Of a stretch of 53,888 bases of DNA, positions 11,666 to 48,104 are shown piece by piece (position 1 is the first letter of the stretch; the number at the start of each line of letters is the position of its first letter). The notes under the pieces are model-generated. The model saw only the letters and a program-made list of their open reading frames with translations, did not search any database and was not told where the DNA came from. A program made the translations under genes and the position numbers. Origin of the DNA: a virus; the IMG/VR virus record IMGVR_UViG_3300031578_000046, positions 1-53,888 of that record, one strand, 5' to 3'.

Positions 11666-11697
11666 TTTATTTAAGTTTTGCGGCTTAAAGTACTACA

Positions 11698-11790
11698 CAC
11701 AACAACGTATATAGTTAAAAAGCCATGTTAATATTCGTTCATTTAATCAGCGTTTGCAGTTGGCTTTCAAACCATATACCAACGTTAGCG
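11698..11790 (-). repeat. attC-like site 15
   Basis: 93 bp. CCGCTAACGTTGGTATATGG with TTTGAAAGCCA pairs with TGGCTTTTTAACTATATAC and core GTTGTTG. Confidence 0.86.
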
Positions 11791-11797
11791 GTAATTG

Positions 11798-29136: not shown

Positions 29137-29631
29137 ATGAAAAATTTATTTATTTTAATCGGTTTAGTTTTTGTTGTTAATTGTTATTCTCAAAGAGAAA
29201 ATATCCTAAGTTTTTCTTATGCTCCTGGTTCAAATGAAATAGGATTAATTTACATTTCAAAACCTATTTTTAGCTTGCAAAAAGATTATAAGCTTTATTC
29301 TTCATTCGAATATGGTAATTATAAACTAATTGAAAGAAAAGTAAGCCGTATTGGTCTAGGGTTTTCAACTGATATAGATTCGAGAGTTAGTTATAACTTT
29401 GCTATTTCTATAAATATTGAAAAATCAGATACCGTTATTATTAGTTATACATCTGGAGGTATTACAACTAATGTTATTCCAGTAAGACCAATTACCTCTG
29501 AAATGGGGTTAACATTTCAAATTAGTCAAAGAACTTATTTAACAATTATGTCTGATCTAATTCATCAAGCCATATTTTATAATAATTTTGCAGCCCCTCA
29601 TTTTAAATTTGGACTAGGTTATAAATTTTAA
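29137..29631 (+). CDS. Outer-membrane barrel-like moron protein
   Basis: 164 aa from the ATG at 29137. Signal peptide MKNLFILIGLVFVVNCYSQ, then amphipathic strands (SFSYAPGSNEIGLIYIS; RKVSRIGLGFSTDIDSR) and a C-terminal aromatic GLGYKF, the hallmark of outer-membrane beta-barrels. It is the only plus-strand gene, with its own promoter, opposite to the late operon. Such morons can be expressed outside the lytic program, for example as superinfection exclusion or conversion proteins. Confidence 0.84.
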   Translation: MKNLFILIGLVFVVNCYSQRENILSFSYAPGSNEIGLIYISKPIFSLQKDYKLYSSFEYGNYKLIERKVSRIGLGFSTDIDSRVSYNFAISINIEKSDTVIISYTSGGITTNVIPVRPITSEMGLTFQISQRTYLTIMSDLIHQAIFYNNFAAPHFKFGLGYKF

Positions 29632-29644: not shown

Positions 29645-30304
29645 TCAATCTTTTATTAATCTTATTGACATGCCGTCATAAGCGTTTGAGGGACCTAAAC
29701 AAGGATTAAGAATACTTGCTGTATTATAATGCAACCTCATAAAATAATAATAAACACTCGTGCTTTTAAATTTCATATAAAAATATTGATTTATTTGTGA
29801 AAAATTATATATATCTAATTGATAAAAGCCGCATGGTCTAGCACTAAAATGAATAGTATCAATAGCCCCTGTATTTGGACTTTGCCAATATGTAGTTCCT
29901 TCCTCTTTTAAAAAACCTCCATTAATAGCATAATCACAGTTTCTTGGTATTCCGAGGATTAATCTGAGTGTTTGAAATTCATTAGTGTCCGGGATATGCC
30001 AACCGCTTATATTTTCTGACATTCTATTAGCTCCTGTATCAGTATACAATATTCCATATTCCCAATATGATGTGGAATCATTATCATACCAATACATTCC
30101 GGTATCATTATCCATATACCTAAGGTTTTCACACATCCAAGTTTGAGTGCCTACCGTCACAATTTCATATTTTATTCCACCGATAGTAGAACTATCAAGT
30201 GTGTACACAATACTATCATTATTATTACCTATTATAAAAAATGGCACTTGACAAAAACTGTCAAGACTAAAAACAATAAATAATATTATTAATATTTTTT
30301 TCAT
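29645..30304 (-). CDS. Secreted Fib_succ_major-like adhesion protein
   Basis: 219 aa. Signal peptide MKKILIILFIVFSLDSFCQ. VGTQTWMCENLRYMDNDTGM, then SGWHIPDTNEFQTLRLILG is the Fib_succ_major (TIGR02145-type) pattern typical of Fibrobacter and Bacteroidetes surface proteins. It follows a large fibre gene two bases away and is likely the tip or chaperone of that fibre, or a secreted cell-binding protein. Confidence 0.86.
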   Translation of the reverse strand: MKKILIILFIVFSLDSFCQVPFFIIGNNNDSIVYTLDSSTIGGIKYEIVTVGTQTWMCENLRYMDNDTGMYWYDNDSTSYWEYGILYTDTGANRMSENISGWHIPDTNEFQTLRLILGIPRNCDYAINGGFLKEEGTTYWQSPNTGAIDTIHFSARPCGFYQLDIYNFSQINQYFYMKFKSTSVYYYFMRLHYNTASILNPCLGPSNAYDGMSIRLIKD

Positions 30305-30305
30305 A

Positions 30306-33305
30306 TTATAAATCTTGTAAATCATCAATACTTGTTACAATCATTTTCCAGCCATTATAATAACAGCTTAATAAAGTATGTGAGCTTGCTGTTGCTGTTA
30401 TTGTTGGCTGAGTGCCTTCGGTTGCTCTCCATTTATCGGCTGCTAATGTTACCGCATACCCTGTACCCCCTTGTATTATTTCAATTAAATAAGTGCCTAT
30501 TTCAGCATTACTATAATCTAATACTGTTATTTCATCAGGTGTTAAAACAAATAAATTTGAGCCGCTTAAATCTAAAGTATAACTACCTCCATCATTAATT
30601 GAATCTCTATTTGTAAAAATTATTTGATCGAACTGAGAATTAGTGGCTTTTATATTCCCATTAATCTCAAAAGTATCTGTTGCGGCTGGTAGAGTTACTA
30701 TTAAATCATTGCCGTCTTCGTGCAATGATACTGAGCCTATTTTTAAGCTGTCATTAATTAACACATTCCCATTTACCTCTAGTTTTTCTGAGGGGGTTGT
30801 TGTTCCTATCCCAATAAATCCAGTATTTCCTTTTATAACTAAAGCATCAACAGAAGCCCCTATGCCATTAAAATAAAAATCAGGGGAATTATTATCATCA
30901 TAATCATAAATTCCAAAACTCCAGCTATTATCTTCATTTTGTATCCGCATAGAAGCATCCCTATCACTTTCATACAAATGAAAAATATTAGATGGATTAT
31001 TAACTCCTATTCCAACATATCCATTCTCAGCAATTCTCATTTTCTCATCCCCATCAATATTAAATATATGAGATGAAGCATCATAATAACCACTATCGGC
31101 TGTGATGTATAATTTCAATGTGTTTGACCCAATAAATAAAGTGTCCTTTAAATGCAACCCCAAAGAAGTAAGCCACATTTTGCGAGTGCCGTTAATACTA
31201 AATACAGTTGAATCCTGACTTGTGTAAAAACTGGTATTAGCATAACTGCCTGCTTTTAATGGATTAACGATAAAAGCAATCCTTTCACTCCCTCCAGTTC
31301 GATTTTCTATTTTACCCCCTGTTATTAATGAAAAATCCTCATCTGTTGCATCCATTCCATAGGCTTGAGTTGCGTAGTTTCCTACGGTGGCATTTGAATT
31401 GGTTATTAAAGAAGATATTGTCGGGGTTGTTGTTGCACTTGCACTTTCAATGTGGAGTTTGGCGAGGGGGGATATTGTTCCTAGACCTAATTTTCCATTA
31501 TATTTTAATCTCATTTTTTCTGTCCCCACTGTATTAAAATCTAAATTACTACCCGATGGGGCTGTTCCGAAAAGTATATCCCCATATTCTGCCCCATTTG
31601 CGTTATTAATTATCTGCCCAAAAATACCAGCATATATATGTGGATTTCCGCCTACATCTTTTAATCCAAAAGAACCGCCCCCAGAATAATCCCCTATCTG
31701 AGCTACTGCCCCCCCGGCTCGGCCTTTTATATATGAATGCGTTACCCCGTATGTATTATTTGAATTTCTTTGTTGATAAACAGAACTTGAATTATTATCT
31801 ATACCTACTATATTCAATGCAAAAATTGGTGTTGCTATTCCTACTCCTATATTATCAAAATAACCCGTATCTGCCTGAAATTTCCGCCCGTCTGTTTTTG
31901 GGCTTATTATATTACCTATTAATTCAAATAAACTCGTATCTGCTATGTCCGCTTTTAAAGCCAAAGAATCAATTAATTGAGCATCCGTTACAAAATTACT
32001 ATCACCAACACTTACAAGCGTCCTATCAATTATACTTCCTGCAAAATCTGATGTATCTGAGCTATGTATATAACCGGATGTATCTGCAATAAGATTATTA
32101 ATATTAGTTAGATTAGTATTAATACGGGTGTTATGTTCTTGTAAGGTATCGAGATGCACGGCGGCCGTATCATATAATGCTGATATACTATCATGTACGG
32201 CTAATAATGAATCATTAATAATTGCTCTTATACTATCGATTGTTTCGGTAGAGTCTATAAAATCTCTATTTAATAGTGAATCATAAAAATCTGCTAATTT
32301 CAAATAATTATTAGTAAAATACTCCTCGGATAAAGGTGTTAACCAATTACTAGCTTCTTCACCCTGGTAATATATATATGTTGTTGTATTCTGAGACCCC
32401 CCTGTTGTTTGCATGTAAATTTTACCGACTAATCGTGAATTACTTGCAGCAGTTCCATAGCTAGTTGACAAAACAGTTGATATTTGAAATTCATCCTTAC
32501 TTGTAACTAAACTACTTAAATTTGATGTTGAAATTAGGTGTTCAGTACCATCATTTTCACGTTCATAAAAATCCCAATATAAACGTACACTTCTATTCCC
32601 TGCTGTTTTTTGAGCATGAATATGAAGTGTATATATACCGGCAATTAAGCTATCGAATGCAAGCCCCGATGGTGAAATCCACTCTTCAATAAGTGTATTC
32701 GTTTCAGCATCGACTGATGTATTTACTGATGCTGTTGTAAGTTCGCTAGGAGTTAATGATGTTTGTTTATATGTAGCTACCGCAATATCAGCAGCATCTA
32801 ACAAATAATATCTAGCTCCTAAATTAACATTTGCAGCCACATATTTTTCTACCCATTCAGCATCAACAAGATTATGCTGCATAAGAGAGTCGTGGTCATC
32901 TCTAAGGCTTGGATTATTATTAAACAATGTTATTGAAGCTGTATCAATTTCTGCATAGGTAGAATAAATCGAATCAGCTATTAATGTATCGAGCGTTAAT
33001 GTTGGACGTAAACTATCTTGTAAAGCATCTTTTCTTAATAAATCTGTTCTTAAATTACTTGCGGTGTCATCAATTTCAGATTGTATAGTAACAATGGTAT
33101 CTTTTAATTGAGTTATTGTCACCCATTCGGTAATGCTATCTTGAATCATTGGGTGACGTGTTGAGTCATAACGATAAGTTTGTCCATTTCCAGAACCGGC
33201 AAATTGAATAGAATCAACATTTATATAATATACATCATTAGCATATTGTTGAGAAAATACACTAATTGAAATAAAGCTAAATAATAATAATAATATCTTT
33301 TTCAT
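30306..33305 (-). CDS. Large tail-fibre-like protein with signal peptide
   Basis: 999 aa from MKKILLLLFSFISISVFSQ, an evident signal peptide. The centre contains VGIATPIFALNIVG, LGLGTISPLAKLHI, VGIGVNNPSNIF and IGIGTTTPSEKLEVNGNV, the VGIGT-P--KL-V-G repeat of tail-fibre/head-fibre proteins. It probably forms a trimeric beta fibre contacting the host. A signal peptide in such a protein is unusual for a virion part. Confidence 0.82.
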   Translation of the reverse strand: MKKILLLLFSFISISVFSQQYANDVYYINVDSIQFAGSGNGQTYRYDSTRHPMIQDSITEWVTITQLKDTIVTIQSEIDDTASNLRTDLLRKDALQDSLRPTLTLDTLIADSIYSTYAEIDTASITLFNNNPSLRDDHDSLMQHNLVDAEWVEKYVAANVNLGARYYLLDAADIAVATYKQTSLTPSELTTASVNTSVDAETNTLIEEWISPSGLAFDSLIAGIYTLHIHAQKTAGNRSVRLYWDFYERENDGTEHLISTSNLSSLVTSKDEFQISTVLSTSYGTAASNSRLVGKIYMQTTGGSQNTTTYIYYQGEEASNWLTPLSEEYFTNNYLKLADFYDSLLNRDFIDSTETIDSIRAIINDSLLAVHDSISALYDTAAVHLDTLQEHNTRINTNLTNINNLIADTSGYIHSSDTSDFAGSIIDRTLVSVGDSNFVTDAQLIDSLALKADIADTSLFELIGNIISPKTDGRKFQADTGYFDNIGVGIATPIFALNIVGIDNNSSSVYQQRNSNNTYGVTHSYIKGRAGGAVAQIGDYSGGGSFGLKDVGGNPHIYAGIFGQIINNANGAEYGDILFGTAPSGSNLDFNTVGTEKMRLKYNGKLGLGTISPLAKLHIESASATTTPTISSLITNSNATVGNYATQAYGMDATDEDFSLITGGKIENRTGGSERIAFIVNPLKAGSYANTSFYTSQDSTVFSINGTRKMWLTSLGLHLKDTLFIGSNTLKLYITADSGYYDASSHIFNIDGDEKMRIAENGYVGIGVNNPSNIFHLYESDRDASMRIQNEDNSWSFGIYDYDDNNSPDFYFNGIGASVDALVIKGNTGFIGIGTTTPSEKLEVNGNVLINDSLKIGSVSLHEDGNDLIVTLPAATDTFEINGNIKATNSQFDQIIFTNRDSINDGGSYTLDLSGSNLFVLTPDEITVLDYSNAEIGTYLIEIIQGGTGYAVTLAADKWRATEGTQPTITATASSHTLLSCYYNGWKMIVTSIDDLQDL

Positions 33306-33315
33306 AAGTTTTATA

Positions 33316-34137
33316 TTAAGGTACATCTGATGTTAGATACGAAAACGCAAAGGCTAATTTATATGTTGATGCAAAATTATAATCATAAAATATCTTTATT
33401 TGTCCATTATAATAAAAATCAGCACCCCAATCATAAGAATCTGATCCCCCCCAATTTCCTAAAGACAAAAAAGATGAAGTAGCGACCCCACAATTGTGGG
33501 GTCTAAGGGCTGATGGTATTGTATAATTAGTGACTGTAACGGAAGTTCCTCCATTATCAAATATTAAACATATATTACCTATTACCATATCTCCCGTTTT
33601 TCTCAGCGACATATATCCTATAGTATCTGCCCCTACTTTTAATATTTGATCGTCTACCTCTGTAATATTTAAATCAATCACTAAATTTACGCTCGCCCTC
33701 CATTGTGTGGTTTCATCAATATCCTGTAAAAATTGTGATACTGATAATCTTCTATCTTCAGTTTCGCTTAAATCATAGAGTGTCATATAATCATTAACGC
33801 TAGCCGTTACTAATGGGGTTTGTGATACTATATAAGGGTTAAGCTGAAGTAATGATACTTTTCTTTCTATATTGGACGTGGTGTCGGTCGTTATTCTTGC
33901 AAATGTTGCTGATCGGCTTAAATCACCATTCAACAATTGTTCATGTTTAATTTTAGGACTTACAATTGACCATGGGATAGCCATAGTGTAATCATTTACT
34001 ACGCTTGTAGAATCATCAACTATAAACTTAGCTGAATCAGTATAAACGCTTAATTGACTCATTTCAAAAATTCTTTCATTTTGTCCATAAATATTTACGA
34101 CAAATAATAATAATACGATTTTTAATAGTGTTTTCAT
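33316..34137 (-). CDS. Fibre-associated protein with signal peptide
   Basis: 273 aa. MKTLLKIVLLLFVVNIYGQ is a signal peptide. The rest is beta-rich (VTVTNYTIPSALRPHNCGVA, then WGADFYYNGQIKIFYDYNFA). Its place between tail proteins suggests a tail-tip or receptor-binding component. Function inferred from position. Confidence 0.74.
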   Translation of the reverse strand: MKTLLKIVLLLFVVNIYGQNERIFEMSQLSVYTDSAKFIVDDSTSVVNDYTMAIPWSIVSPKIKHEQLLNGDLSRSATFARITTDTTSNIERKVSLLQLNPYIVSQTPLVTASVNDYMTLYDLSETEDRRLSVSQFLQDIDETTQWRASVNLVIDLNITEVDDQILKVGADTIGYMSLRKTGDMVIGNICLIFDNGGTSVTVTNYTIPSALRPHNCGVATSSFLSLGNWGGSDSYDWGADFYYNGQIKIFYDYNFASTYKLAFAFSYLTSDVP

Positions 34138-34141
34138 AATT

Positions 34142-35086
34142 TTATCTTATTTTGTGTCTTAATGTGCCTGTTTTTGTTCTTATTGGGTTTCTGTTTTTAT
34201 CTATCACATAATGTGTTTCTTCAGCGGCTACAGCCTCCAACACATCATAACTCTCAAATCCTATATCCTGTAATTTTACACTACCACTATAGATATATGT
34301 ATTTGGTATTTTTTCATAATTTAAAGAATCTTCTGCCCTATATTGTCTATTGTTTATAAAAAGATTATCATGTAATATAGCAAGATTTAATTGACGTATT
34401 ACCCAAAAAGGAACGGGGCCAAGCTGTAAATTTACATACTCAAGCGCATTCCCTTGTAATAAATTGAATATTCCATTAACCCCGGAATATCCTGTTTTTA
34501 TTTGCCCCGGTTCTATATCAAAAAATCTAGATTCTAATCTAAAAATATTATATTTTACGCCGTAATAAATGCCATCATTATTATAAGATGTTGTATTATT
34601 ATAATATTTAACCACAACAGTATCGCCCTCGTTAATAGATGATACATAAAAAGGTTCACATCTATAAGTTTGTGACGTATTTATTGTTGCAATAACATAA
34701 TACCAGCCTCCTAATACTGAGCAGTCTATATTAAAATCATAATAACTTACTAAACCGTATGAAGTGTTGACAGTTGTTGTAGCCGATGGAATGGCGATAC
34801 TAGATACTTCCACATCTGTTCTAAAATTACGGAGGCTAAATGAACCGATAGTATGTATAGTTGCAATTTGCGTGTTTATTTGATCCCCAGTTCCTGTATT
34901 GTCATATTTAGGAAAATAATTCCAATCGTCATCAGTATTTGGTACAACTAAATTACCTAGTAATCTATTATCTAACAATGGTAAAGTTCCTGCTTGATTA
35001 TCAGTTCTAACCCATCGTAAAACATTACTTTTGGCAATTCTTACGCCTCCATCACTTATATCAATATCTCCGGTAGTTGCGCTCAT
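34142..35086 (-). CDS. Tail structural protein
   Basis: 314 aa, no signal peptide, beta-rich (SATTGDIDISDGGVRIAKSN). It shares one base with the upstream gene. Probably a tail-tip or adhesion protein because it lies between the baseplate-like protein and the fibres; family unknown. Confidence 0.72.
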   Translation of the reverse strand: MSATTGDIDISDGGVRIAKSNVLRWVRTDNQAGTLPLLDNRLLGNLVVPNTDDDWNYFPKYDNTGTGDQINTQIATIHTIGSFSLRNFRTDVEVSSIAIPSATTTVNTSYGLVSYYDFNIDCSVLGGWYYVIATINTSQTYRCEPFYVSSINEGDTVVVKYYNNTTSYNNDGIYYGVKYNIFRLESRFFDIEPGQIKTGYSGVNGIFNLLQGNALEYVNLQLGPVPFWVIRQLNLAILHDNLFINNRQYRAEDSLNYEKIPNTYIYSGSVKLQDIGFESYDVLEAVAAEETHYVIDKNRNPIRTKTGTLRHKIR

Positions 35087-35535
35087 TAAATTTTTTCTAT
35101 TATTTTATATTTTACCGTTATGGTATTTCCCGTTCCATTATAAATATCCCAATAAAATTGTCCAGCAATTACAGAACTTTGTTTAAAATTTATTAATGCA
35201 TCTATAGTGCCAAGCCCTGATTTTGGAATAAATTTACCAGTAGTTCCATCATATACAAATTCCATTTCAATTTTATATCTATCTGTAGAATTTATTATAA
35301 ATGCTTTTACTGACCAATATTGATAAGTCGCTACGGCTCCTAATGGTATAGCTGTACTTCCCAATGTTGTTACTGTTAATGGAGTCCATTCACCTACAGC
35401 AATAGCTAATACATAAGCATCAAAACCAGCTTTCGAAAGTCTTTTATTAGTAGCATTTGAATCTCTAGTCATCATAAAATGATCATCTGCTATTGGTTCG
35501 GTTATAATTGTTGCGTTTGCTGAAAATTTAGCCAT
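35086..35535 (-). CDS. Tail protein, small
   Basis: 149 aa, MAKFSANATIITEPIADDHF, then RDSNATNKRLSKAGFDAYVL. Beta-rich, likely part of the tail tip. Its start follows the 585-aa tail gene by 11 bases. Function unknown. Confidence 0.7.
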   Translation of the reverse strand: MAKFSANATIITEPIADDHFMMTRDSNATNKRLSKAGFDAYVLAIAVGEWTPLTVTTLGSTAIPLGAVATYQYWSVKAFIINSTDRYKIEMEFVYDGTTGKFIPKSGLGTIDALINFKQSSVIAGQFYWDIYNGTGNTITVKYKIIEKI

Positions 35536-35546
35536 TTTTTATATTT

Positions 35547-37304
35547 TTATGCTGCCTCAAATTCTATCATTGAACTTTCATCTTCAAATTCTATATAATC
35601 ACTTTCATCTTCAAATTCCATGTAAGTGGGTTCTAATGCTGTAATACTTCGGGGTTCCCATCCCATTATATTAAAATCACTTCCATCTGTTGGGTTTATT
35701 GATGTTTCCCGTAACCATATATAATTATAATCATCATCTATTTCACTCCAATATTTAAGATAATAACCGGGATAATCTCTTATTTCTGCAAAATTACCTG
35801 GGCTTAATGATGCATTTAAATCAATTTGCATACCGCTTAATAATACGGCTGTATCAGGAGCTAAATCATCAATTGCAATATTTGTATTATCAGTTACAAC
35901 AATTGTACTTCCTGTTAACTGACTGCTTACTTTGCTTAAATTTTCAGCCCCTTGAAATTTCAAATACTCACCTGTATTATGTAATAAACTCGTTTTTATC
36001 CAACGGCCTCTATTATATATACATTGTGTTGGTCTTATTCTTAAATTTGTGTAAAGGGGAGCCGCTCCATAAATTCCAGTTACTACACTTTGCCAACCTT
36101 CAATATTATCTCGGCTTTTTAATGTTGCCCCGTCATAATAAGCGTCAATTACAAATATAGCCTCATCAGTATCGAATGCCTCAGTATCTTTACTACGTCC
36201 GCTTACAGGGTTAGCTCTTGCCCTTTCTATATCTGCTGGACTTGCTGAAAAGTTACTTATTATAGATTGTGTATTACTAAAATTAATTAACGGGCTTGTA
36301 TAACTTACCTTTCCGCTGTAATCACTTAACCCTTCTTCATTATCCTTTGAAAATTTAGTATAACCAACTTCATAAATATTATTAAAAAATTCTGAAATAG
36401 GTTTTTTTCTTATATCACTTATATCACCTTTTTCTAATACAAATGAATATTGTTTATTTTTAAAAAAATAACTAAGTTCTTCAATTATAATATAGGGTAA
36501 TCCATCAATATACTCAACTGCCATACCTAAAGGCTGGATAAGATTTAAAACTTGAAAAATATAATCAAAGTTTGTTACAAAATCTGTTTTCCCTGATACT
36601 TTAGAATTGTTTTCATTTGGTAAAATACCGCTTATTAAAAGCCCTTTACTAAACATTACTAAACTTAAATCACCATTAACTGCATAATCATAACTAGCAT
36701 TAAATCCGTTTGAACTTAAATTAGTGCGGCCAAGTATTGAGCTTTTTAAAAGATCATGGCCGAAGTCGGTTATTTTTTGTAATAATTTAGTTACTAACTC
36801 AAAAGGCGGTATTACTTTTATTGATGTTGCTTCGTAACCACCTGCCCCATCGCTTCCCGTTAATGATAAATCAAAAAAGTCGCTTAAAAATCCTAAAGTT
36901 TCAAGTCCTCCCAAAGAGTATTTTGAATTATAATCTATTTCTAATTTTGAACGGTCATTTAATTTCGTGTTAAAACTCGAATCGCTTACATTGGCATTTA
37001 TAAAAAATCTCTCTTCATTATGTCCTTCTAAATTTATTATGCCATCTATTAAAATTTTCCATTCAGAATTTTCAAAATATTCAATTGAACATTCAATAAT
37101 AATATCTAATCCATCGGCTGCTATTTTAGATTTTATCCAAGTTCGTGATGTTTCAGTAAATCCAAATTCTTCAGTAAATTCCCTAATAACATTATTAGTT
37201 GGATTAACCTTTAATTTATAACCCATTTGCCCGAATCCTCTCGGTAAATCGTTTATATTAATCGTTAAACTATCAGAATCATATGTTAAAACCATTCTCC
37301 ACAT
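35547..37304 (-). CDS. Baseplate/distal tail protein
   Basis: 585 aa. It opens with beta sequence (YDSDSLTININDLPRGFGQM) and repeats EFE-DES at the very C-terminus (MEFEDES, IEFEDES, IEFEAA, residues about 560-585). Position directly after the tape measure in the transcription order matches distal tail or tail-tip proteins. The acidic repeats are unusual and may bind metal or a partner protein. Confidence 0.8.
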   Translation of the reverse strand: MWRMVLTYDSDSLTININDLPRGFGQMGYKLKVNPTNNVIREFTEEFGFTETSRTWIKSKIAADGLDIIIECSIEYFENSEWKILIDGIINLEGHNEERFFINANVSDSSFNTKLNDRSKLEIDYNSKYSLGGLETLGFLSDFFDLSLTGSDGAGGYEATSIKVIPPFELVTKLLQKITDFGHDLLKSSILGRTNLSSNGFNASYDYAVNGDLSLVMFSKGLLISGILPNENNSKVSGKTDFVTNFDYIFQVLNLIQPLGMAVEYIDGLPYIIIEELSYFFKNKQYSFVLEKGDISDIRKKPISEFFNNIYEVGYTKFSKDNEEGLSDYSGKVSYTSPLINFSNTQSIISNFSASPADIERARANPVSGRSKDTEAFDTDEAIFVIDAYYDGATLKSRDNIEGWQSVVTGIYGAAPLYTNLRIRPTQCIYNRGRWIKTSLLHNTGEYLKFQGAENLSKVSSQLTGSTIVVTDNTNIAIDDLAPDTAVLLSGMQIDLNASLSPGNFAEIRDYPGYYLKYWSEIDDDYNYIWLRETSINPTDGSDFNIMGWEPRSITALEPTYMEFEDESDYIEFEDESSMIEFEAA

Positions 37305-37306
37305 AA

Positions 37307-39652
37307 TCAGCCGTATTTTTTATTAAGGTAAATTTTACGTTCGTTTCTTTGTCTTACTTCTGCAATTGTTACACCTTTATATATTGTTTGCGGTGTGTTT
37401 GATATTCCTTTAATAATTTTATTTCCAAGTTCATCAAAATCTTTTTTTCTTATTGTATTAATATCGCTTACTTCACGTCCTCTCATTGCTAAACTAGCAA
37501 GTTCACTTTGTATATTATCGTTCGGAATAACATCACTACCTTTGGGTAAGTTTATCATTGTTGGTTCGTTAACAAGAAACTTATCATTATTAGGTAGTTT
37601 TATTAATTCAGTTTGCGAACCTCCGGTGGCCGAGTCTCCCACTACTGCTATACCTCCCTCAAAATTTTTCACTCCTTTGTAAAATGATGGTATTTCTGGT
37701 AATGGTTGAGCTAAAACAGTTGATGCTTGTAAAACCCCTGATGCAATAACTAAAGGTACTGCAAAAATTGCCCCGACACCAGTTTGCCCAGTTACTTTCA
37801 TCGCTCCTACGGCTGTATTTATTGCAATTTCACTTAATGCAATGGATTTATTTAATATCGCTTGCTTACGTTGTATTTTAGCTACTGCTATTGCCTTTTC
37901 TTGTTCTAATTTTTCAGTATCCTTCCCGTTCTTTTTTGCTAATGCAATATCATCATCATATCCTCTTGCTGTCATTTCTTGTTTACGATCAAATAACTCA
38001 TTAGCCAAATCAAAAGCAGCGTAGGCAGTTTCTTTTTTTAATTCCCCTAGTTTTTTTTCTAATTCTATTTGATCTAATATTCTTTGAGCTTCTTTAGCGT
38101 ATGCCTCTTGATTTTGTTTATCTATTTCATCTAAATTTTCTTGATTTAATGACTCGCCCTCTGCAAACATTTCTTCTTCTAACTTTAGAATATCTTCATT
38201 AAATTTCTTTTGTTCAGAGATTTTGCTTTTTTTAATAGCTATTGCCTTTAAATTTTCTTCATCCTGAATAGTAAACAATGTAGCAAACATCCTTTTATTA
38301 TCTTTAAACACAGATTCTTGTACTGTCAATAAATCAATATATGTTTTTGTTAAAGCTTCACGCCCTCCAATTCCCTCATCAACTATTTCATTTTGTCCTT
38401 CATATTTACTTGTTAAATCTTCATTTCTTTTAATTGCCTCTTGTACATAATTTAACTCTGTTTCATAAGAATCTATCATAAAAGGAATACCATCTTCCCT
38501 AGCTCTACGTAAATTTGATGCTATATTTATTTCCTTTTCCCTTAATATTGTTAACTCATTTTGAGCTTTTGAAATTATCCCGTAGTTTTTTAAATAATCA
38601 ATTATTTCTTTTTCGCTCATTCCTGATCGTTGCTCTGCTATCTTAAATTCAGCATCAAAAGCTAATTTAGCATTCTCAACTCTCCCCTTATTTAATTTTT
38701 CCTGTATTGCTATAAACTCTTTAGCTGACTTCGTTCTTTCAGCATTTGTTTTTGAAACATCTTTAGCAATCTTCTCTAATTCTGTTAAATTATGAGTTTG
38801 TTCAGCTTCAAGTATTGATTGCATCCTTACCCTATCACCTATATCATCTAAAGTTTTTGCATATTCCTCTCCAGCCTTTCTTGCATCTTTAAAATTTTGG
38901 ATTAATTCTTTAAATGACGTTTCGCCAGTTGCAATACTTCTAAAAACTCCATTCATTCCCTCTTTTAATCCACCTGCAAATATCGCAAACTTATCTCCAG
39001 TACTTTGTACTGAATTAATCATTGTATCTAAACCTTTCTTTAACAATTGAACACCTACATTAACACCTGCAAATGCTAATCCACCTTTTACTATTGCCTT
39101 GAAATAACCACCAATTCCCTTTGTTTGTTTTTGAGCTGCATTAGCAGCTTTATTCATTAATTTATTATTTTTATCTTGCTCAGTATTTATTGCCTGTAAA
39201 TTTTTACGCCCTTGTTTAGTTGTTAAATCTAATTTCTTTTTTTGTTCATTAAGTTCTTTATTTCTATTTGTTAATTTTTGTAAAGTACCTATTTCTTTAT
39301 TTTGCTCTGCGATCTCTTTTTTAGCCTGTTCAGTTACTTCTTTGCTTTTTCTTCTTTTTTCTTCCTTTGCCTTTGCTAGTAATAATTCAGCATCTTTTTG
39401 TTTAGTACTTGCGTTTTTTAAATCTGTTTCAAGTTTTATAGTCTGATTTACAGTATCAGTATATTTTTTTTGTTCTGTATTTAATTGTGTTGTTGCTGTT
39501 TTTAATTCATTAATATTTTTTGCACCTGAAATTTTACTCCCATAAGTAGACATAGTTTTTAACTGCTCGTTTACTTTCAATAAACTGGCATAAATATCAT
39601 CAAACGCTTTTTTTACGTTTGGATTAACTAATTGTTTATCATTTATAGCCAT
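37307..39652 (-). CDS. Tape measure protein
   Basis: 781 aa. Extended N-terminal coiled coil (KKYTDTVNQTIKLETDLKNA and LQKLTNRNKELNEQKKKLDL), one hydrophobic stretch (IVKGGLAFAGVNVGVQLL) near 190-210, more helices, and hydrophobic GAMKVTGQTGVGAIFAVPLV near 625. The mix of long helices and membrane-like segments and its place before tail-tip genes fits a tape measure. The length predicts a tail of roughly 110-120 nm using the 1.5 angstrom per residue rule (estimate only). Confidence 0.9.
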   Translation of the reverse strand: MAINDKQLVNPNVKKAFDDIYASLLKVNEQLKTMSTYGSKISGAKNINELKTATTQLNTEQKKYTDTVNQTIKLETDLKNASTKQKDAELLLAKAKEEKRRKSKEVTEQAKKEIAEQNKEIGTLQKLTNRNKELNEQKKKLDLTTKQGRKNLQAINTEQDKNNKLMNKAANAAQKQTKGIGGYFKAIVKGGLAFAGVNVGVQLLKKGLDTMINSVQSTGDKFAIFAGGLKEGMNGVFRSIATGETSFKELIQNFKDARKAGEEYAKTLDDIGDRVRMQSILEAEQTHNLTELEKIAKDVSKTNAERTKSAKEFIAIQEKLNKGRVENAKLAFDAEFKIAEQRSGMSEKEIIDYLKNYGIISKAQNELTILREKEINIASNLRRAREDGIPFMIDSYETELNYVQEAIKRNEDLTSKYEGQNEIVDEGIGGREALTKTYIDLLTVQESVFKDNKRMFATLFTIQDEENLKAIAIKKSKISEQKKFNEDILKLEEEMFAEGESLNQENLDEIDKQNQEAYAKEAQRILDQIELEKKLGELKKETAYAAFDLANELFDRKQEMTARGYDDDIALAKKNGKDTEKLEQEKAIAVAKIQRKQAILNKSIALSEIAINTAVGAMKVTGQTGVGAIFAVPLVIASGVLQASTVLAQPLPEIPSFYKGVKNFEGGIAVVGDSATGGSQTELIKLPNNDKFLVNEPTMINLPKGSDVIPNDNIQSELASLAMRGREVSDINTIRKKDFDELGNKIIKGISNTPQTIYKGVTIAEVRQRNERKIYLNKKYG

Positions 39653-40302
39653 TATGCGGCTTTATTTTGAGCGTTCATCTGTTCACGAGTTTTTATTACT
39701 TCAATCATTCTCTTCTTAGCACTTATAAATGTTAACATACTATCTTTATATATGTCTATCTTTATATTTGCCATGCTTTCGATAAGTAATACTATTTCTA
39801 AATAGCTTGTATTCCCTTTTTTTTCTTTAGTTTTCTTTTCAATTAAGTCCTCAATTTCTTTGTTTTTTCGGTTTATCTGATTTGTTTTATTTATAGCTCT
39901 GTTTCTTAATCGATCTATTTCTTTTTCAAGTTCATCAATATTAGTATAGTTTAATTTGTAATCCATTTGAGCCAATATGTTTTCAAAAAAATCAAAGTCT
40001 AATTTTATTCCAGAATATTTATAACCCATTAAAAAAAGAACATTTAATATAAATTGCTGATCTGACTGTAATCTAACAACCATTTTACTTAAATCTAAAA
40101 GCTCATTTTGTTGTGGAGGATCAATCTCATCATATTTTTCTTTTAATACATCCCTTGTTTCTTCAAGTTCTTTAATATTATCAACATCAGGCAGTTCCAT
40201 GTAATTATCTAAAACAAGTAAATACCTGGCATCTTCAAAACTTTCGAAAAAGCTAAATACTGTACAAAATTTTAGTTCTTTATATACCTTTGGTAATATC
40301 AT
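39652..40302 (-). CDS. Tail assembly-type helical protein
   Basis: 216 aa, largely helical (NIDELEKEIDRLRNRAINKT). It sits between the major tail protein region and the tape measure, where tail assembly chaperones are usually encoded, and shares one base with the tape measure start. Inferred role only. Confidence 0.72.
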   Translation of the reverse strand: MILPKVYKELKFCTVFSFFESFEDARYLLVLDNYMELPDVDNIKELEETRDVLKEKYDEIDPPQQNELLDLSKMVVRLQSDQQFILNVLFLMGYKYSGIKLDFDFFENILAQMDYKLNYTNIDELEKEIDRLRNRAINKTNQINRKNKEIEDLIEKKTKEKKGNTSYLEIVLLIESMANIKIDIYKDSMLTFISAKKRMIEVIKTREQMNAQNKAA

Positions 40303-40714
40303 TTAATATCTCTTTTTCAAAGTCCGGTGCTAAGTTTAGATTATCAATTTTTTGAATCCCAAAAATAGGCTGGCCACTTACTAAGTTGACCAGCTTATCT
40401 CTTTTACTATCTTTGGAATCTATCTCAGAATTATTATTATTCTGTTTTAAAAAGAACTTTTCAGTAAAATCACCCTCTAAATAAAAGTTATAACGCTTTC
40501 CAGCATTGAATAAAAGCCCCTCAGCCGCTTTACCTTTATAATAATCTTGGCTTGCATATTCAGGAAACTTACCACCATTAGCATCTTCACCCCTTTTTAG
40601 TTGGTTTACATTTTCATCAATCAACTCCGCTTCATTTTTCTTTAGAACCCTTGCTTCTATTTCCTGAAGGTTTAGATTCTTTAGATTTGTCAATAGTATC
40701 TGTATTACTTCCAT
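40280..40714 (-). CDS. Tail-completion-like protein
   Basis: 144 aa. ARVLKKNEAELIDENVNQLK, then GKRYNFYLEGDFTEKFFLK. Overlaps both neighbours (23 and 83 bases). Between the major tail protein and the tape measure; possibly a tail terminator or chaperone. No confident family. Confidence 0.65.
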   Translation of the reverse strand: MEVIQILLTNLKNLNLQEIEARVLKKNEAELIDENVNQLKRGEDANGGKFPEYASQDYYKGKAAEGLLFNAGKRYNFYLEGDFTEKFFLKQNNNNSEIDSKDSKRDKLVNLVSGQPIFGIQKIDNLNLAPDFEKEILNDITKGI

Positions 40715-40865
40715 TATCTTTTATTTTACCACCGAGTTGAACAAAAATCTTTTCATAATCAAATGGAACATTATGAAAGATTGCTTTAAATTTCTCTAAA
40801 GTACACTTGCCTTTTATTCCAAGTGTGATATTATGTTCTTTGCCGGTCTTATCAAATACTATCAT
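40632..40865 (-). CDS. Small tail protein, possible assembly chaperone
   Basis: 77 aa. N-terminal beta (MIVFDKTGKEHNITLGIKGK) then a basic, disordered tail (KESKPSGNRSKGSKEK). The gene overlaps the next by 83 bases in another frame. Such overlaps and position match tail chaperone pairs, but I see no slippery frameshift signal. Confidence 0.68.
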   Translation of the reverse strand: MIVFDKTGKEHNITLGIKGKCTLEKFKAIFHNVPFDYEKIFVQLGGKIKDNGSNTDTIDKSKESKPSGNRSKGSKEK

Positions 40866-41755
40866 TATGCTACTGCTGGGGTTACACTTCCTGTTACTCC
40901 TTTACTCTCGATAAATTCATAATCTATTCCTGCATAAACTAAGGCCGCTGAGACTAGATTATAAGTCGTTGCCGTTCCGTCTGTCATTGTAAAAGTATAA
41001 GTTCCGCCTCCATCATCTGAAAATACCGAAGTAGTTCCGCCGGTCACAGTAAATAAAGATTCTGTTAAATTAGCAACGCCATTTCCTGATTCATCAATAA
41101 CAGTTACTGTTACGTTATATAATGCGCCTGTTGCCGTTGCTGCAATTGTAACCTCTCTTACTGATTCAAGTTCATCAAATAAAAAAGCCGTTGGCTTAAG
41201 AATTTTATTATACTGCTCGTGATCTGATTTATTACTAAATGAAACGCTTCCTTTGACAACCATAATGTCATTAAAAGGAATAGTTTTTTGATCAATCGAA
41301 AAGTCTGCAACTCGCAAAGGGTAAAAAATAGTTCCCGTTGCATCTGTTCGACCTTCAATAATATTATCATTCCAAATAATATATAGATCGAAATCTTTAT
41401 TATTAAGAGTGAAAAGATTGTTCATTACAGCATTTTCAACATTAAACATAAAGTCAAATCCATATTCGCCATCATTTAAGGTGTTGATTTGACCGCTTGT
41501 AAATGTTTTCTTTTCTGCTGCTGTTGTAGTTTCTGCACCTTCTACAATTAAAGGTGTTTTATACCATCTTCCAGTAGTTTGTAATAACCCTGTTGAATAG
41601 GTTGCTTTTAATATAGCCGCCGCTGCGGTTGCTATATTTGCTCCTTTTGGCACAAGTAACATCCATTTTGCATGAAGCTTTTTTTCAGCTACACGCCCTG
41701 CCTTAGTACCAATAGGCGTGACATCATCTGTGTTCGGTAATTGATTAAATCCCAT
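40865..41755 (-). CDS. Major tail protein with C-terminal Ig-like domain
   Basis: 296 aa. The first 200 residues are a tail-tube-type beta domain (DGEYGFDFMFNVENAVMNNL). The C-terminal 80 are Ig-like (VTVIDESGNGVANLTESLFT and GGTYTFTMTDGTATTYNLVS), as often displayed on phage tail tubes. Position before the chaperone and tape measure genes supports the call. Confidence 0.82.
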   Translation of the reverse strand: MGFNQLPNTDDVTPIGTKAGRVAEKKLHAKWMLLVPKGANIATAAAAILKATYSTGLLQTTGRWYKTPLIVEGAETTTAAEKKTFTSGQINTLNDGEYGFDFMFNVENAVMNNLFTLNNKDFDLYIIWNDNIIEGRTDATGTIFYPLRVADFSIDQKTIPFNDIMVVKGSVSFSNKSDHEQYNKILKPTAFLFDELESVREVTIAATATGALYNVTVTVIDESGNGVANLTESLFTVTGGTTSVFSDDGGGTYTFTMTDGTATTYNLVSAALVYAGIDYEFIESKGVTGSVTPAVA

Positions 41756-41759
41756 TTTT

Positions 41760-42290
41760 TTAAATTTTATTTACGTTAATATTTTTAAAGCTCAAATAAA
41801 TTGCATCGACAATAAGATTGAGTTTGTTTTGTTTTGTATCCTCAGCACCTAAATAATAAAGGTCTTCATGATCATGTTCTATTTCTTGTTTATTATTCCA
41901 AAACCAATTACTTACTTCCATTTTTGCCATAAATGAATTATAAATTGGATATAAAGAAGTTTTGAAAACATTACTTAGTCTCTCATCTGATGTATATTTT
42001 CGATCTGATTCATCAATAATATACATATCGAAACTAAGCTCATTAAAAGGGCTAAAACTCACTTCTTTAAATTTTATAGTAGGAAGTATCAATAAAATAG
42101 CAGGAAATTTCTTACCAACTACACTATATTGTGACAATACTTGTAAGTTATTGGCTATCTCTAACCAATGACCTGAATAGAATTTAGGAATATTATTAGG
42201 ACTATCACCTGTTTGAATAGATGTAACCAACGCCGATATTACATCGGTAGGGTAAAAAATTGTATCTTGTGATATGTTATTAAATCCCAT
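41760..42290 (-). CDS. Head-tail connector/tail terminator-like protein
   Basis: 176 aa from the ATG at 42290 (MGFNNISQDTIFYP), overlapping the preceding stop (TAATG). Mixed alpha/beta with LSFDMYIIDESDRKYTSDER. Located between the head-tail adaptor and major tail protein, where tail terminators are coded. Function from position. Confidence 0.72.
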   Translation of the reverse strand: MGFNNISQDTIFYPTDVISALVTSIQTGDSPNNIPKFYSGHWLEIANNLQVLSQYSVVGKKFPAILLILPTIKFKEVSFSPFNELSFDMYIIDESDRKYTSDERLSNVFKTSLYPIYNSFMAKMEVSNWFWNNKQEIEHDHEDLYYLGAEDTKQNKLNLIVDAIYLSFKNINVNKI

Positions 42291-42826
42291 TATTCTAATG
42301 ATAAATATTGTCCATAATTTGTACAATCAGTTAAAAGTTCAGGGTAATAATCAGTTGATAACCCATTTTTATAATCCATGTAATCAATTGCGTCCTTATA
42401 ATAATCAACTCCCTTATTCCATGCCCTTATCATTTTAACCCTTAAATTACCGAGTGAAGAAACCGAATTTTCAGTCTCCGATTTCTTTTCTCCGGTATCT
42501 GAATCAAAACTTTGCTTTTCTCTCTTAAAATAAAAATAAACAAAACTGGCTAACATCTTTTTCAAACCTACCCATTCATATTTATACCCGTCAATAGTTA
42601 CTATCTCACCATCTCTTAAAACTGTATAAACATCTTCATCTTCATTATCTGTTAAATATTGATAAAGAGCTTCACCAAATAACTCCCGGAATATCTTTTG
42701 TTGATACTCGGTTATTATCGTATTTAAATCAGCTTGTTTAGCTAAATCAATAACGCTAGTTGGTCCTATATTTAAATATAAAATGCCTGTAAAATCCTCA
42801 TATGTTATAATGTTAGCCAGTGCCAT
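42290..42826 (-). CDS. Head-tail adaptor-like protein
   Basis: 178 aa. NIITYEDFTGILYLNIGPTS, then YQQKIFRELFGEALYQYLTD resembles the gp6-like (DUF6712-type) connector of Bacteroidota phages. Helical core. It probably joins portal and tail. Confidence 0.76.
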   Translation of the reverse strand: MALANIITYEDFTGILYLNIGPTSVIDLAKQADLNTIITEYQQKIFRELFGEALYQYLTDNEDEDVYTVLRDGEIVTIDGYKYEWVGLKKMLASFVYFYFKREKQSFDSDTGEKKSETENSVSSLGNLRVKMIRAWNKGVDYYKDAIDYMDYKNGLSTDYYPELLTDCTNYGQYLSLE

Positions 42827-42833
42827 GTTATTC

Positions 42834-43022
42834 TTATTTTAAAAACCCTTTTTGTTGCTTTTGCTTTTCGGCTGCTTTTGCTTTCTTTGCATCGTTCATC
42901 TTTTGAATCTTTGCTTTATTAGCCTCTTCATCTTTTAAATAAATGGCTTTTTTAGCTTTTACCAAAATGTCAGCAACTATGCCGGTGCAAATTTTTTGAT
43001 TACTTTTTATTCGTGCTTTCAT
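42834..43022 (-). CDS. Small basic protein near connector genes
   Basis: 62 aa, strongly Lys-rich C-terminal helix (KMNDAKKAKAAEKQKQQKGF). Could bind DNA or another head component. It lies seven bases before the connector gene. Confidence 0.65.
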   Translation of the reverse strand: MKARIKSNQKICTGIVADILVKAKKAIYLKDEEANKAKIQKMNDAKKAKAAEKQKQQKGFLK

Positions 43023-43033
43023 TGTTAATTATT

Positions 43034-45766
43034 TTAATTACCTGCAGGTGATACTAATACCCATTGAGTTCCATCATAAACAGCCATAACTACTGATCCT
43101 GTATTAATTTCGCTGCCTTCTAATGCGCTTGGAGCTGCACCTGGAGCTTGTTCATATACATTTTTGGCAGTACCGCCATCAACGGCAATAGTAAGGGTAG
43201 TTGTATTTGCCCCCTCGGCTACAAACATAATCATTAATCCAGCCTGTAATGCAGGTAAATCAGGAGTATAATCAAGTGCTACGGCAGAAGCAGCAGTACC
43301 ACCAACTCCGGCAGCATCGCAAAAATTCCACGTTGCCCCACGTATATTACTATTCCCTAAATTAGTTACTCCATCAGTTGCATTATTAATTACTTCTCCA
43401 TTCTGCAATTTAATATCATTATCGCACCCGGTAATTTTAATGCCATCGAACCAATCTAAACCATTTGATTTAATATATAATCCAGAAAAATTAGCACTTG
43501 CGTTAATAGTAGCCCCTGCATTTATTGATCCATCAATTGTTATTCCAGTTACATGTTCAGTTGCTCCAACTGAAAACCCTGCTTCTGATTCAATTGCTGC
43601 ACTTATAGCGTCAAATGTGCCATTACCGCTTAAAACTGATGTTCCTGATTGTTCAGCATAAGCCCAAAGACCAGCATGTACTCCGTCAGCTATATTAACA
43701 TCCCTTAATCTAAATTGGCTTTCACTTCCAACAATAGTTGATTGATTTGTTTGATTAGTTGTCATTGCCAAAGCACGTGAATATGTTCCAGCAAATACTT
43801 TTCCTGCTGTAGCCGAATAATCAACCATACTGTAAATCCCAAGCCCTGCATTAGTATTAGAAGATGTTTCCGGCAAAACTATATGTTCGCCTGTATACCC
43901 CCAGCTACCAACTGAGCCAACTGTATCAATTAACAACGGGTCGCTAACAGTTATGTTAGTCCCATCGGCTGTTAAAGCATCTAAAGCAATAGAACCAACA
44001 TTAGCAATATCCCCATCGCTTAAATCAAGCGCATCGGTGGCTAAATTTATAGTTCCATAATCAACGCTTGTTACTCCCGTTGAGCTTGTTGCTGTCCATG
44101 TATCAGCAGAAGGTGTTAAAACTAAATCTTCTGATTGTCCTAATAATTGAATACTTAAAACATCATCCGATCCAATTACTACACCAGAAGCTCCATCGAC
44201 ATCATATACATCTGAAAGCATTGTAGCTGCAACGATTGTATCTGTAGTAAGTATTTTCCCATCAGAAGTAATATCGCCTAATCCTGTGGCAATTCCAGTC
44301 ACCCCAATATCCCAATCGCTCGTATTTATTGCCACCGTCTCAGTTCCTGCACCAATAGCAATTGCTGAACCATCAGCTTTAATTGAATCTAATTCAATAT
44401 TTCCTACATTAGTAATATTTCCATCAGATAAATCAATTGAAGTTGTAAATGTCGGGGATGTAGAGAAAACCAAATTAGTTGATGTAGTTCCAGTAGCACC
44501 AGAAGCCGTATATCCAGTAATATTATTAAAAGATGTTATTGAAGCTGTTAAAGCATTAGTGCCTCCGTTTGCAACTGGTAATACACCTGTTACACCTGTT
44601 GTCATAGGTAAACCAGAGCAGCTTGTCAATATACCTGCTGATGGAGTTCCAAGTGTGGGGGTTACTAAAGTTGGAGATGTAGCCCTCACGGGTGCGCCTG
44701 TTCCTGTTGCTGTTGTCCAAACTGGTGCGCTTCCTGCGCCACCACCGACTAATATTTCAGTAGTAGCTCCGTTATCTAATGTTAATAATTCTGCATCAGT
44801 TATTGAACCATCACTACCATAAGTTGCTGCGCTTACTGTGCCGCTTGCTTTAATAGCTCCGGTAACATCAAGTTCAACTGTTGGAACGGCTGTTTTAATA
44901 CCTACCAAACCATCTGGATTTAAATTAATGTCCCCCTCCGCTGCTGCCGCATCTACTGTAGCAATTGTTAATGCTCCATCGGCTGCAACCGTTGCAGTTG
45001 CGTAATTAGTTGCATCATAATTTAACCTTAATTGTTCTGTAGTGGCAGTCGTGCTAATTTTACCTGTGCCTGTAATTGTTGTTCCACTTATTGCGCCTGT
45101 TGATGTAATAGCTCCTATCCCGGTCATTGCTCCAGTTGCATCAATAGCCCAATCACTTGATGTAATTGCGGTTGTACTTCCTGCATCTCCTAAAGTTAAA
45201 GCTCCAGTTCCCCCAGCCGCAATCGTTAAAGCTGCATCGGCATTATTATCAGCACTTGTTATCGTTACAGTTCCGGCGGTTGCCCTTGATACTGTTAATG
45301 TACCTGAATTAGCAGGTATATCATAAGCGTTACTAGTTTTAACCTCGAAAACATCAATTAAAGTTTGTTGAGTTGCTCCACTTGCTACAAATTCAACTTT
45401 CAAATAATTATAATTAATTGGCGATGTACTTGTAATTGATCCGTCATCACTATCGGAGGTCCAAGTTATAGCCGAACCGATTGCAACCCATGAGCTAGTT
45501 GATGTTACTTTTCCATAAGCTGTAATAGTTACTGAAGGGGTTCCTGAAACATCTTCTAATCCAATTGTGAAAACTTGGTTTTGTGCGTATTTCTGCCTAT
45601 TTTCTATCGTGAAAGTAGTTGTTTCGCTAGTATTTGTCGTGTCGCTTGCATCTAAAGATACTGGCCTTAATTCTGTGTAACCAGTCCTAATACTTAATGT
45701 TCTATCTGCTGCATTACTGATTAATGCTGCAAAAATCAGTAATATTAATATAGTATATTTTTTCAT
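43034..45766 (-). CDS. Head- or tail-fibre-like protein with signal peptide
   Basis: 910 aa from the ATG at 45766, four bases after the capsid stop. A signal peptide (KKYTILILLIFAALISNA) is evident. Long series of beta repeats (TTAITSSDWAIDATGAMTGI; ELDVTGAIKASGTVSAATYG; NTSDWDIGVTGIATGLGDIT) as in trimeric beta-helical fibres. Placement between capsid and connectors suggests a head fibre. The repeated Thr/Gly-rich text produces false reading frames on the plus strand. Confidence 0.84.
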   Translation of the reverse strand: MKKYTILILLIFAALISNAADRTLSIRTGYTELRPVSLDASDTTNTSETTTFTIENRQKYAQNQVFTIGLEDVSGTPSVTITAYGKVTSTSSWVAIGSAITWTSDSDDGSITSTSPINYNYLKVEFVASGATQQTLIDVFEVKTSNAYDIPANSGTLTVSRATAGTVTITSADNNADAALTIAAGGTGALTLGDAGSTTAITSSDWAIDATGAMTGIGAITSTGAISGTTITGTGKISTTATTEQLRLNYDATNYATATVAADGALTIATVDAAAAEGDINLNPDGLVGIKTAVPTVELDVTGAIKASGTVSAATYGSDGSITDAELLTLDNGATTEILVGGGAGSAPVWTTATGTGAPVRATSPTLVTPTLGTPSAGILTSCSGLPMTTGVTGVLPVANGGTNALTASITSFNNITGYTASGATGTTSTNLVFSTSPTFTTSIDLSDGNITNVGNIELDSIKADGSAIAIGAGTETVAINTSDWDIGVTGIATGLGDITSDGKILTTDTIVAATMLSDVYDVDGASGVVIGSDDVLSIQLLGQSEDLVLTPSADTWTATSSTGVTSVDYGTINLATDALDLSDGDIANVGSIALDALTADGTNITVSDPLLIDTVGSVGSWGYTGEHIVLPETSSNTNAGLGIYSMVDYSATAGKVFAGTYSRALAMTTNQTNQSTIVGSESQFRLRDVNIADGVHAGLWAYAEQSGTSVLSGNGTFDAISAAIESEAGFSVGATEHVTGITIDGSINAGATINASANFSGLYIKSNGLDWFDGIKITGCDNDIKLQNGEVINNATDGVTNLGNSNIRGATWNFCDAAGVGGTAASAVALDYTPDLPALQAGLMIMFVAEGANTTTLTIAVDGGTAKNVYEQAPGAAPSALEGSEINTGSVVMAVYDGTQWVLVSPAGN

Positions 45767-45770: not shown

Positions 45771-47147
45771 CTATACATATATAAGTGCATTCCAATCAGT
45801 ATCTACAGAATCAGAATATATTACAGCCGCCTTGTCACGTACTGCAAATGCTATTCTAACTTTTACAATAACAGTTTTTTGTCCTTCAGTGGCATCGGTT
45901 CCATTATAAAGAATCTCTAATGTCATTTCTTTACGTTTACCAATTATCAATTGTTTAGTATCGACAACTGCCATTGTGTCGGCTGTAATCCCGGTTGATT
46001 CAAAAATCCTTAATCCGTTTACAAAAACAGGTCTACCTATATTATCAAAAGACACTCTTCTATCACTAACTGAGTTATTTAATAGGTCTTTCAATTGACT
46101 GAGAATAGTCACTTCCTGGGGATTCATAATTATTGCATTCGGAATATATTTATTTGCCTTGCATTCATCCGCCATAATACCAATAAGATCAATAATATTT
46201 GCTCCAGGTATAGCTGCTGCATAAGCAGTACCAGAATAATCAGTATGCTTATTTGCCGTAAACAAACCAGCCAACGCCGTTGAATCATCTCCGGCAGTTC
46301 CTAAAATCTGACCATCAATATTGTCAAGAATTTTATCAGGAAATACAATTGCAATTTCATCTAATGCTTCAGGAAGATCATCTAATGTTTCATCAGATAA
46401 AGTACCATATGTTGAAATATAAAACGCTTTAAATTCAACGGTTTTAAGTAAGAAGCTTGATTGACTTGGTGCTGATCCTTCTGTTTTTGTACCAGCTCCA
46501 TCAGAATAACTATACGCAACCATCACAGACATATATGCTTTAGATATTCCTTTTGATGGCATCCATTCCATTACATGAGGATAAATTGTAAGAGGTATTC
46601 CAACTCTTGTAGGGTCAAGTTCAGTTAAGCGAACAGTAGCTACATTTGATTGGACAATATTACTCTCTAACATATCAACCGCTTTCATTGTGAAAACAGG
46701 AGAGGTGTTATTGCCTTTTTCGGTAAAATAATCTTTTAAAGATAGCCTGTGACCGTTATCGTCATTTTTTTCTGTAAGGACATCTTTCTTTTCCATTATT
46801 GCTTCTTCTAAGGCTTTCCTAAAAGTTCTTGGAGCTTTATTAGTATTGCCGTTTTCTTGCATTCCTTTTACAGCTAATCCAATTTCCTCAATTGATTTTT
46901 CAGCTTTTGCCTGTGCTTCAATCATTTTGGCTACTGAATCATTTAGTTTTTTCATGCCTTCGTTGTCAAGATTATCAGCAATTTGCTTATTAATCTCATC
47001 AACTTTTTTATTCAATTGCTTTTCTGTTATTGATTCTTTTTTCGAATCATCTAACATTTTTTGCACCTTACTTTCTATATCGGAAAGCAAAGCCGCTTTT
47101 TCTTGCTCGTCTTTTACTTTTTGAGCTTCAATCTCTTCTTTTGTCAT
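45771..47147 (-). CDS. Major capsid protein, HK97-like
   Basis: 458 aa. N-terminal coiled coil (residues 1-100, KKESITEKQLNKKVDEINKQ) as in the delta/scaffolding domain removed by the protease. Then the HK97 fold (FKAFYISTYGTLSDETLDDL; GRPVFVNGLRIFESTGITAD; VRIAFAVRDKAAVIYSDSV). It follows the prohead protease by a four-base overlap. Confidence 0.92.
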   Translation of the reverse strand: MTKEEIEAQKVKDEQEKAALLSDIESKVQKMLDDSKKESITEKQLNKKVDEINKQIADNLDNEGMKKLNDSVAKMIEAQAKAEKSIEEIGLAVKGMQENGNTNKAPRTFRKALEEAIMEKKDVLTEKNDDNGHRLSLKDYFTEKGNNTSPVFTMKAVDMLESNIVQSNVATVRLTELDPTRVGIPLTIYPHVMEWMPSKGISKAYMSVMVAYSYSDGAGTKTEGSAPSQSSFLLKTVEFKAFYISTYGTLSDETLDDLPEALDEIAIVFPDKILDNIDGQILGTAGDDSTALAGLFTANKHTDYSGTAYAAAIPGANIIDLIGIMADECKANKYIPNAIIMNPQEVTILSQLKDLLNNSVSDRRVSFDNIGRPVFVNGLRIFESTGITADTMAVVDTKQLIIGKRKEMTLEILYNGTDATEGQKTVIVKVRIAFAVRDKAAVIYSDSVDTDWNALIYV

Positions 47148-48005: not shown

Positions 48006-48104
48006 TTATTTTTTAATTATTTTACCCTCATTTAAAGCTTTTTTCTTTTTCTTATCAAGCTTTTTAATTTTTTCAATTTCTTCTTTTGTCAATTTAGTTT
48101 TCAT
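48006..48104 (-). CDS. Micro-protein between portal and protease
   Basis: 32 aa, extremely Lys-rich (MKTKLTKEEIEKIKKLDKKK). It overlaps the portal stop by 11 bases and precedes the protease by four. Could be real but short, possibly a scaffold-like peptide. Confidence 0.45.
   Translation of the reverse strand: MKTKLTKEEIEKIKKLDKKKKKALNEGKIIKK

Follow-up and report, generated by a model that had tools for sequence, protein, structure and literature searches.

Signal peptides on virion-position proteins of a probable Bacteroidota phage and on Cellulophaga phage fibres

In the textbook view tailed phages are assembled entirely in the cytoplasm, and a signal peptide on a phage protein is usually read as the mark of a surface 'moron', not of a virion component. 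The closest systems to the genes considered here are the fibres of several Cellulophaga phages, which likewise lie after the tail tip, begin with Q-rule signal peptides and have long fibre-like or lyase-like tips; they differ in being annotated as identified by MS/MS, in sharing no sequence similarity with the present proteins, and in that a glycosylation motif is avoided in them, not enriched. The Q-rule is the occurrence of Gln at position +1 after signal peptidase I cleavage in Bacteroidetes (PMC5837995). Nixviridae phages of Porphyromonas gingivalis also have Q-rule genes; the report describing them assigns no function, suggests a role at the outer membrane of the host, and does not link them to fibres (PMC10367356). 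In Bacuni phages, Fib_succ_major/DUF1566 proteins are tied to tropism and are targets of diversity-generating retroelements (PMC8143477); the gene at 29645-30304 shares the Fib_succ_major domain, and by eye no reverse transcriptase was recognised among the ORFs read in the window. Conventional fibres, such as those of phi18:1, phi17:2 and crAss001, have the gene position and proposed role of the present ones without a signal peptide; the tip of one of them, phi17:2 gp050, matches a signal-peptide fibre. The Q-rule and the Q-rule genes of P. gingivalis phages are already known. Among the papers searched we found none linking signal peptides to phage virion fibres, an absence which is no proof, and the paper proposing several of the flavophage families concerned does not mention signal peptides on fibres (PMC8776804).

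The late operon and its signal peptides

The window, i.e. the whole stretch of 53,888 bases (30% GC) that was analysed, is the complete IMG/VR record IMGVR_UViG_3300031578_000046. A single minus-strand late operon runs from the portal through the major capsid protein (MCP), a tape-measure-like gene and the tail tip to three tail-end genes, beyond which lie a DUF5675 gene and small genes. The four minus-strand ORFs which the initial annotation had placed in this operon as virion-type proteins with signal peptides were confirmed by direct reading, and are referred to below by their first coordinate (a slash marks the predicted cleavage site).

48094-49392, minus strand: portal, late operon
45771..47147, minus strand: MCP (phrog_10, E 3.4e-16), its stop just before the start of 43034
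43034-45766, minus strand: 910 aa, signal peptide 45710-45766, SNA/A, N-terminus MKKYTILILLIFAALISNA/ADRT
45287..45709, minus strand: beta-sandwich domain of the 43034 protein, residues 20-160 (alignment A2, AlphaFold2)
37307-39652, minus strand: tape-measure-like, late operon
34142..37304, minus strand: tail-tip genes (phrog_15220, E 3.8e-35; Dit-like Pfam match, E 0.0023, under the curated cut-off)
33316-34137, minus strand: 273 aa, signal peptide 34084-34137, IYG/Q, N-terminus MKTLLKIVLLLFVVNIYG/QNER
30306-33305, minus strand: 999 aa, signal peptide 33252-33305, VFS/Q, N-terminus MKKILLLLFSFISISVFS/QQYA
29645-30304, minus strand: 219 aa, signal peptide 30251-30304, SFC/Q, N-terminus MKKILIILFIVFSLDSFC/QVPF
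29137-29631, plus strand: 164 aa, fifth Q-rule gene, signal peptide 29137-29190, NCYS/QREN; outside the claim on virion parts

All four late-operon genes start with Sec/signal-peptidase-I signal peptides, called by a rule-based detector together with reading by eye, with positive charge at the start, then a hydrophobic core and small residues at -3 and -1; the tail-tip genes have none. The detector scores 2.0% of shuffled phage N-termini as signal peptides and 0.19% as signal peptides with Q at +1; the signal peptides of the window genes are not a chance occurrence. Mature N-termini following SQ had been anticipated, and Gln does occupy +1 in 33316, 30306 and 29645, as well as in 29137, whereas 43034 has the predicted site SNA/A, with Ala. 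The SFC/Q site of 29645 was read by eye, the script's preferred cut lying before LDSFCQ. The initial annotation is to be corrected in that 43034 is capsid-adjacent and not at the tail-fibre position, and in that the fifth Q-rule gene had gone unlisted. Searches of Pfam, PHROGs and INPHARED gave no match for the product of that gene; lying on the plus strand, against the direction of the late operon, it might, as a guess, encode an outer-membrane protein or a superinfection-exclusion 'moron'.

The window MCP is distant kin (24% identity) of Flavobacterium phage capsids of the genus Muminvirus; this kinship and the Q-rule signal peptides together point towards a host among the Bacteroidota. A search of GTDB genomes with the MCP alignment revealed no prophage kin, a related-locus search with the tail-tip protein as query gave no matches, and a Bacteroidota promoter pattern occurs 7 times against 4.0 expected, which is not significant. 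A second record, IMGVR_UViG_3300031673_000484, with an identical MCP and identical residues 1-554 of the 43034 protein, is by these sequences either the same virus or one of its very close strains. Elsewhere in the window, a tail-region gene (40865-41755, minus strand) has a C-terminus with weak similarity to Ig-like domains (Invasin_D3, E 6.5e-5; Big_1, E 0.003; both under curated cut-offs), and a radical SAM protein (1917-2699, minus strand; Pfam E 1.9e-11) is encoded next to the terminase genes. Distant from the late operon, an SLT transglycosylase domain (16559-16987, minus strand; Pfam E 2.6e-7) follows a hydrophobic N-terminus, and is adjoined by a small gene (16293-16562) which also has a hydrophobic N-terminus.

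Capsid-adjacent and tail-end genes in the window and its relatives

A search of IMG/VR with the capsid-protein alignment yielded 49 loci, 48 of which were grouped into 36 clusters at 90% identity. A signal-peptide gene is located at or adjoining the 3' end of the capsid gene in 33 of the 36 clusters (in L074 by eye) and is absent in three. Gln is at +1 in 19 of 33 scored capsid-adjacent proteins, against approximately 4% expected, a proportion similar to the 59-77% reported in Porphyromonas species (PMC5837995). The sequences of the h-regions vary, with the signal-peptide form kept, and the first ~130 mature residues constitute one beta-sandwich family (alignment A2; AlphaFold2 pLDDT 92), members of which occur alone (135-160 aa) or with fibre-like extensions, reaching 910 aa in the window. 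Two adjoining copies of this domain are present in the relative G010 (33321-33662 and 34309-34680). Foldseek with the 43034 domain gave generic CUB, CBM and jelly-roll matches and no assignable function, and the whole protein has no fibre-family match in Pfam and PHROGs, and short repeat matches only by tblastn against INPHARED. For the fibre-like 43034 protein, encoded directly behind the capsid gene, the probable role is that of a head fibre or decoration protein, its location on the head being a guess from gene position.

The other three genes, 33316, 30306 and 29645, map directly after the tail-tip genes. Their earlier description as fibre-like fits 30306-33305, a putative long tail fibre matching two PHROG tail-fibre families (E 5e-10 and 7e-10), but not 29645-30304, which encodes a Fib_succ_major protein (Pfam PF09603, E 4.9e-17) and not a fibre shaft; the latter is a probable tip or lectin. 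For 33316 a receptor-binding tip is suspected from reading of its sequence by eye; this protein has no fibre-family match in Pfam and PHROGs, no match in the related-locus search, and in its mature form, modelled by AlphaFold2 without relatives, a fold that is not predictable (pLDDT 29). None of 30306, 33316, 29645 and 29137 has a tblastn match in INPHARED, and besides the signal-peptide genes no further fibre candidate was recognised in the tail module of the window.

Two relatives with 73% capsid identity, G006 and G002 (near-identical to each other), have three Q-rule genes behind their tail genes (1088, 137 and 437 aa), which share with the tail-end genes of the window a single 76-residue BLAST match, between the two long fibres. 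Nine further relatives, G010-G018, were read downstream of the capsid. In five of these (G010, G013, G014, G016 and G018) two to four Q-rule genes, one of those in G013 by eye, lie behind the tail tip, mostly with no sequence similarity to those of the window. Fibre-position genes are present in G012 and G017 too, there without signal peptides; G011 has one small Q-rule gene only, and the G015 record ends too early to be informative. Since G016 has signal peptides on its tail genes and none at the capsid, whilst G012 and G017 present the reverse, the capsid-adjacent and tail signal-peptide genes are independent modules. The observation of export signals on virion-position proteins is right for the window and also general, extending to the capsid clusters, the tails of relatives and the Cellulophaga phages.

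Fibre-position proteins of Cellulophaga phages

Here, virion status refers to GenBank annotation of MS/MS identification, not to the spectra, and the Cellulophaga proteins correspond to those of the window in position and architecture but not in sequence. Consecutive fibre positions are occupied by 13 MS/MS-marked proteins (phi19:1 gp101-104, phi10:1 gp091-094, phi18:3 gp085-087 and phi39:1 gp25-26), several of which RefSeq labels "tail fiber proteins"; the four phages fall into different families (Assiduviridae, Pachyviridae and unassigned). A signal peptide is found on 13/13 of these proteins versus 0/39 of the other MS/MS proteins of the same phages, a contrast for which a Fisher test is circular, as the fibre set was picked via its signal peptides, such that the shuffle control was used instead. 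By script 11 of the 13 have Gln at +1 (approximately 4% expected), with gp25 a twelfth by eye.

Comparison of these fibres reveals a modular organisation. The phi19:1 gp102 and phi18:3 gp086 proteins are 82% identical at residues 1-118 with no BLAST match beyond, and the match of phi19:1 gp103 to 'pectate lyases' of other phages is limited to residues 1-55; conversely, phi17:2 gp050 matches gp103 from residue 43 onward only, and its own N-terminus is non-secretory. The conserved module in the Cellulophaga phages is made up of the signal peptide and the first 35-100 mature residues, the tips being variable, and by these match patterns the N-terminal module and the tip are separately exchangeable. 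Conventional tail fibres have the same module and tip arrangement; in the Cellulophaga fibres the signal peptide is on the attachment side. In phi19:3 (L041) the gp103-type fibre gene is present twice (7874-8785 and 11173-12087), both copies with Q-rule signal peptides.

Signal peptides are lacking on the fibres of the cultured phages phi18:1, phi17:2, crAss001, snusmum, 11b and B124-14; phi18:1 has the same host strain as phi18:3. Bacteroidota phages can thus do without fibre export, as these six phages together with G012 and G017 show.

Evidence for export and a proposed assembly route

In Bacteroidota, D[ST][AILVMT] is the site of O-glycosylation on noncytoplasmic proteins (PMC12871550). 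Against a shuffle null, this motif is avoided in the Cellulophaga signal-peptide fibres (11 versus 40.6 expected, P 4e-8), with the control motifs near expectation (D[ST] followed by other residues, 57 versus 64; N[ST][AILVMT], 58 versus 49), and the avoidance recurred in a partly independent hold-out set (7 versus 14.8 expected, P 0.02). The remaining structural proteins of these phages have 52 versus 61 expected. The three tail-position proteins of the window are instead enriched (30 versus 9.0), which 43034 does not share (4 versus 8), and the signal-peptide fibres of relatives show a deficit of D[ST] followed by other residues (23 versus 63), whereas observed-to-expected ratios are near 1 in structural proteins and in fibres without signal peptides. 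The confinement of these deviations to signal-peptide proteins is hard to explain without contact with the periplasm, and is a hint of it; the test was chosen post hoc, relies on a shuffle null and gave deviations of opposite sign between the two groups, and so carries limited weight. Glycosylation as a uniform purpose of export is rejected given the avoidance in Cellulophaga, as are disulphides as a reason, cysteine counts being low.

Real export is supported indirectly by the +1 Gln and the motif signature, and as both the tail-fibre-like proteins of the window and the MS/MS-annotated fibres of marine phages have export tags, the fibres probably leave the cytoplasm before joining the particle. 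We lean towards a model in which the products of 33316, 30306 and 29645 are virion receptor-binding fibres and tips of a tailed Bacteroidota phage, made as Sec preproteins and exported to the periplasm. There, signal peptidase I would expose a Gln that a host cyclase could convert to pyroglutamate, and some fibres may be O-glycosylated. At lysis, mixing of the compartments would allow the mature N-terminal module to bind the tail tip of particles assembled in the cytoplasm; the capsid-adjacent 43034 protein would follow the same export route. None of the papers found describes such a late-joining step for these fibres. It is plausible, given that fibres and spikes of T4 and P22 can be added to finished particles in vitro.

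The initial annotation had offered three fates for these proteins: secreted decoys, cleavage during assembly, or display on the infected cell. Cleavage is likely, as ordinary signal-peptidase-I processing judging by the +1 Gln and the motif signature, whereas the existence of MS/MS-annotated Cellulophaga equivalents and the lack of another recognised fibre candidate in the tail module make decoys or display less likely for the tail genes. In its wider form, that late-made exported proteins act outside the virion as surface adhesins, decoys or superinfection blockers and contaminate virion preparations, such a role would account for the signal peptides and the Q-rule, and the P. gingivalis phage genes of unknown function have been read so (PMC10367356). 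We nevertheless consider it unlikely: in four phages every MS/MS-backed fibre-position protein carries a signal peptide, with no other fibre listed, ordinary fibres fill the role in phages lacking signal-peptide fibres, and the mosaic of N-terminal module and tip is tail-fibre architecture. Fib_succ_major is a common domain of Bacteroidota surface proteins, a point which would suit a non-virion role and equally, with similar domains, the capture of host genes for surface proteins that do nothing for the phage and whose signal peptides are leftovers. Leftovers would decay, however, whereas these signal peptides recur at two map positions in dozens of divergent phages whose mature sequences are unrelated, rendering capture a very remote prospect.

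Alternatively, the hydrophobic N-terminus could be retained without export as a tail-binding or trimer-forming plug, in keeping with the standard view of wholly cytoplasmic assembly and with conservation of the signal peptide along with the mature N-terminal module. This is improbable in our estimation, as a +1 Gln at the frequencies seen in both the Cellulophaga fibres and the capsid-adjacent proteins has no role without cleavage, the motif is off expectation in signal-peptide proteins only, and the h-regions vary in sequence yet stay signal-peptide-like.

Extension of the preferred reading, export followed by late attachment, to many Bacteroidota phages is more tentative, and we place it a little short of an even chance: an extracytoplasmic fibre assembly line may operate by Sec export, pyroglutamate formation, glycosylation in some hosts and addition at lysis, with the capsid-adjacent protein included in the lineage of the window. 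The question is testable in existing C. baltica phages. Were it true, a signal peptide would no longer mark a phage protein as non-virion in annotation, adsorption would hinge on the secretion and glycosylation systems of the host, host glycans could be present on virions, and particles, once released, might acquire fibres made elsewhere in the lysate.
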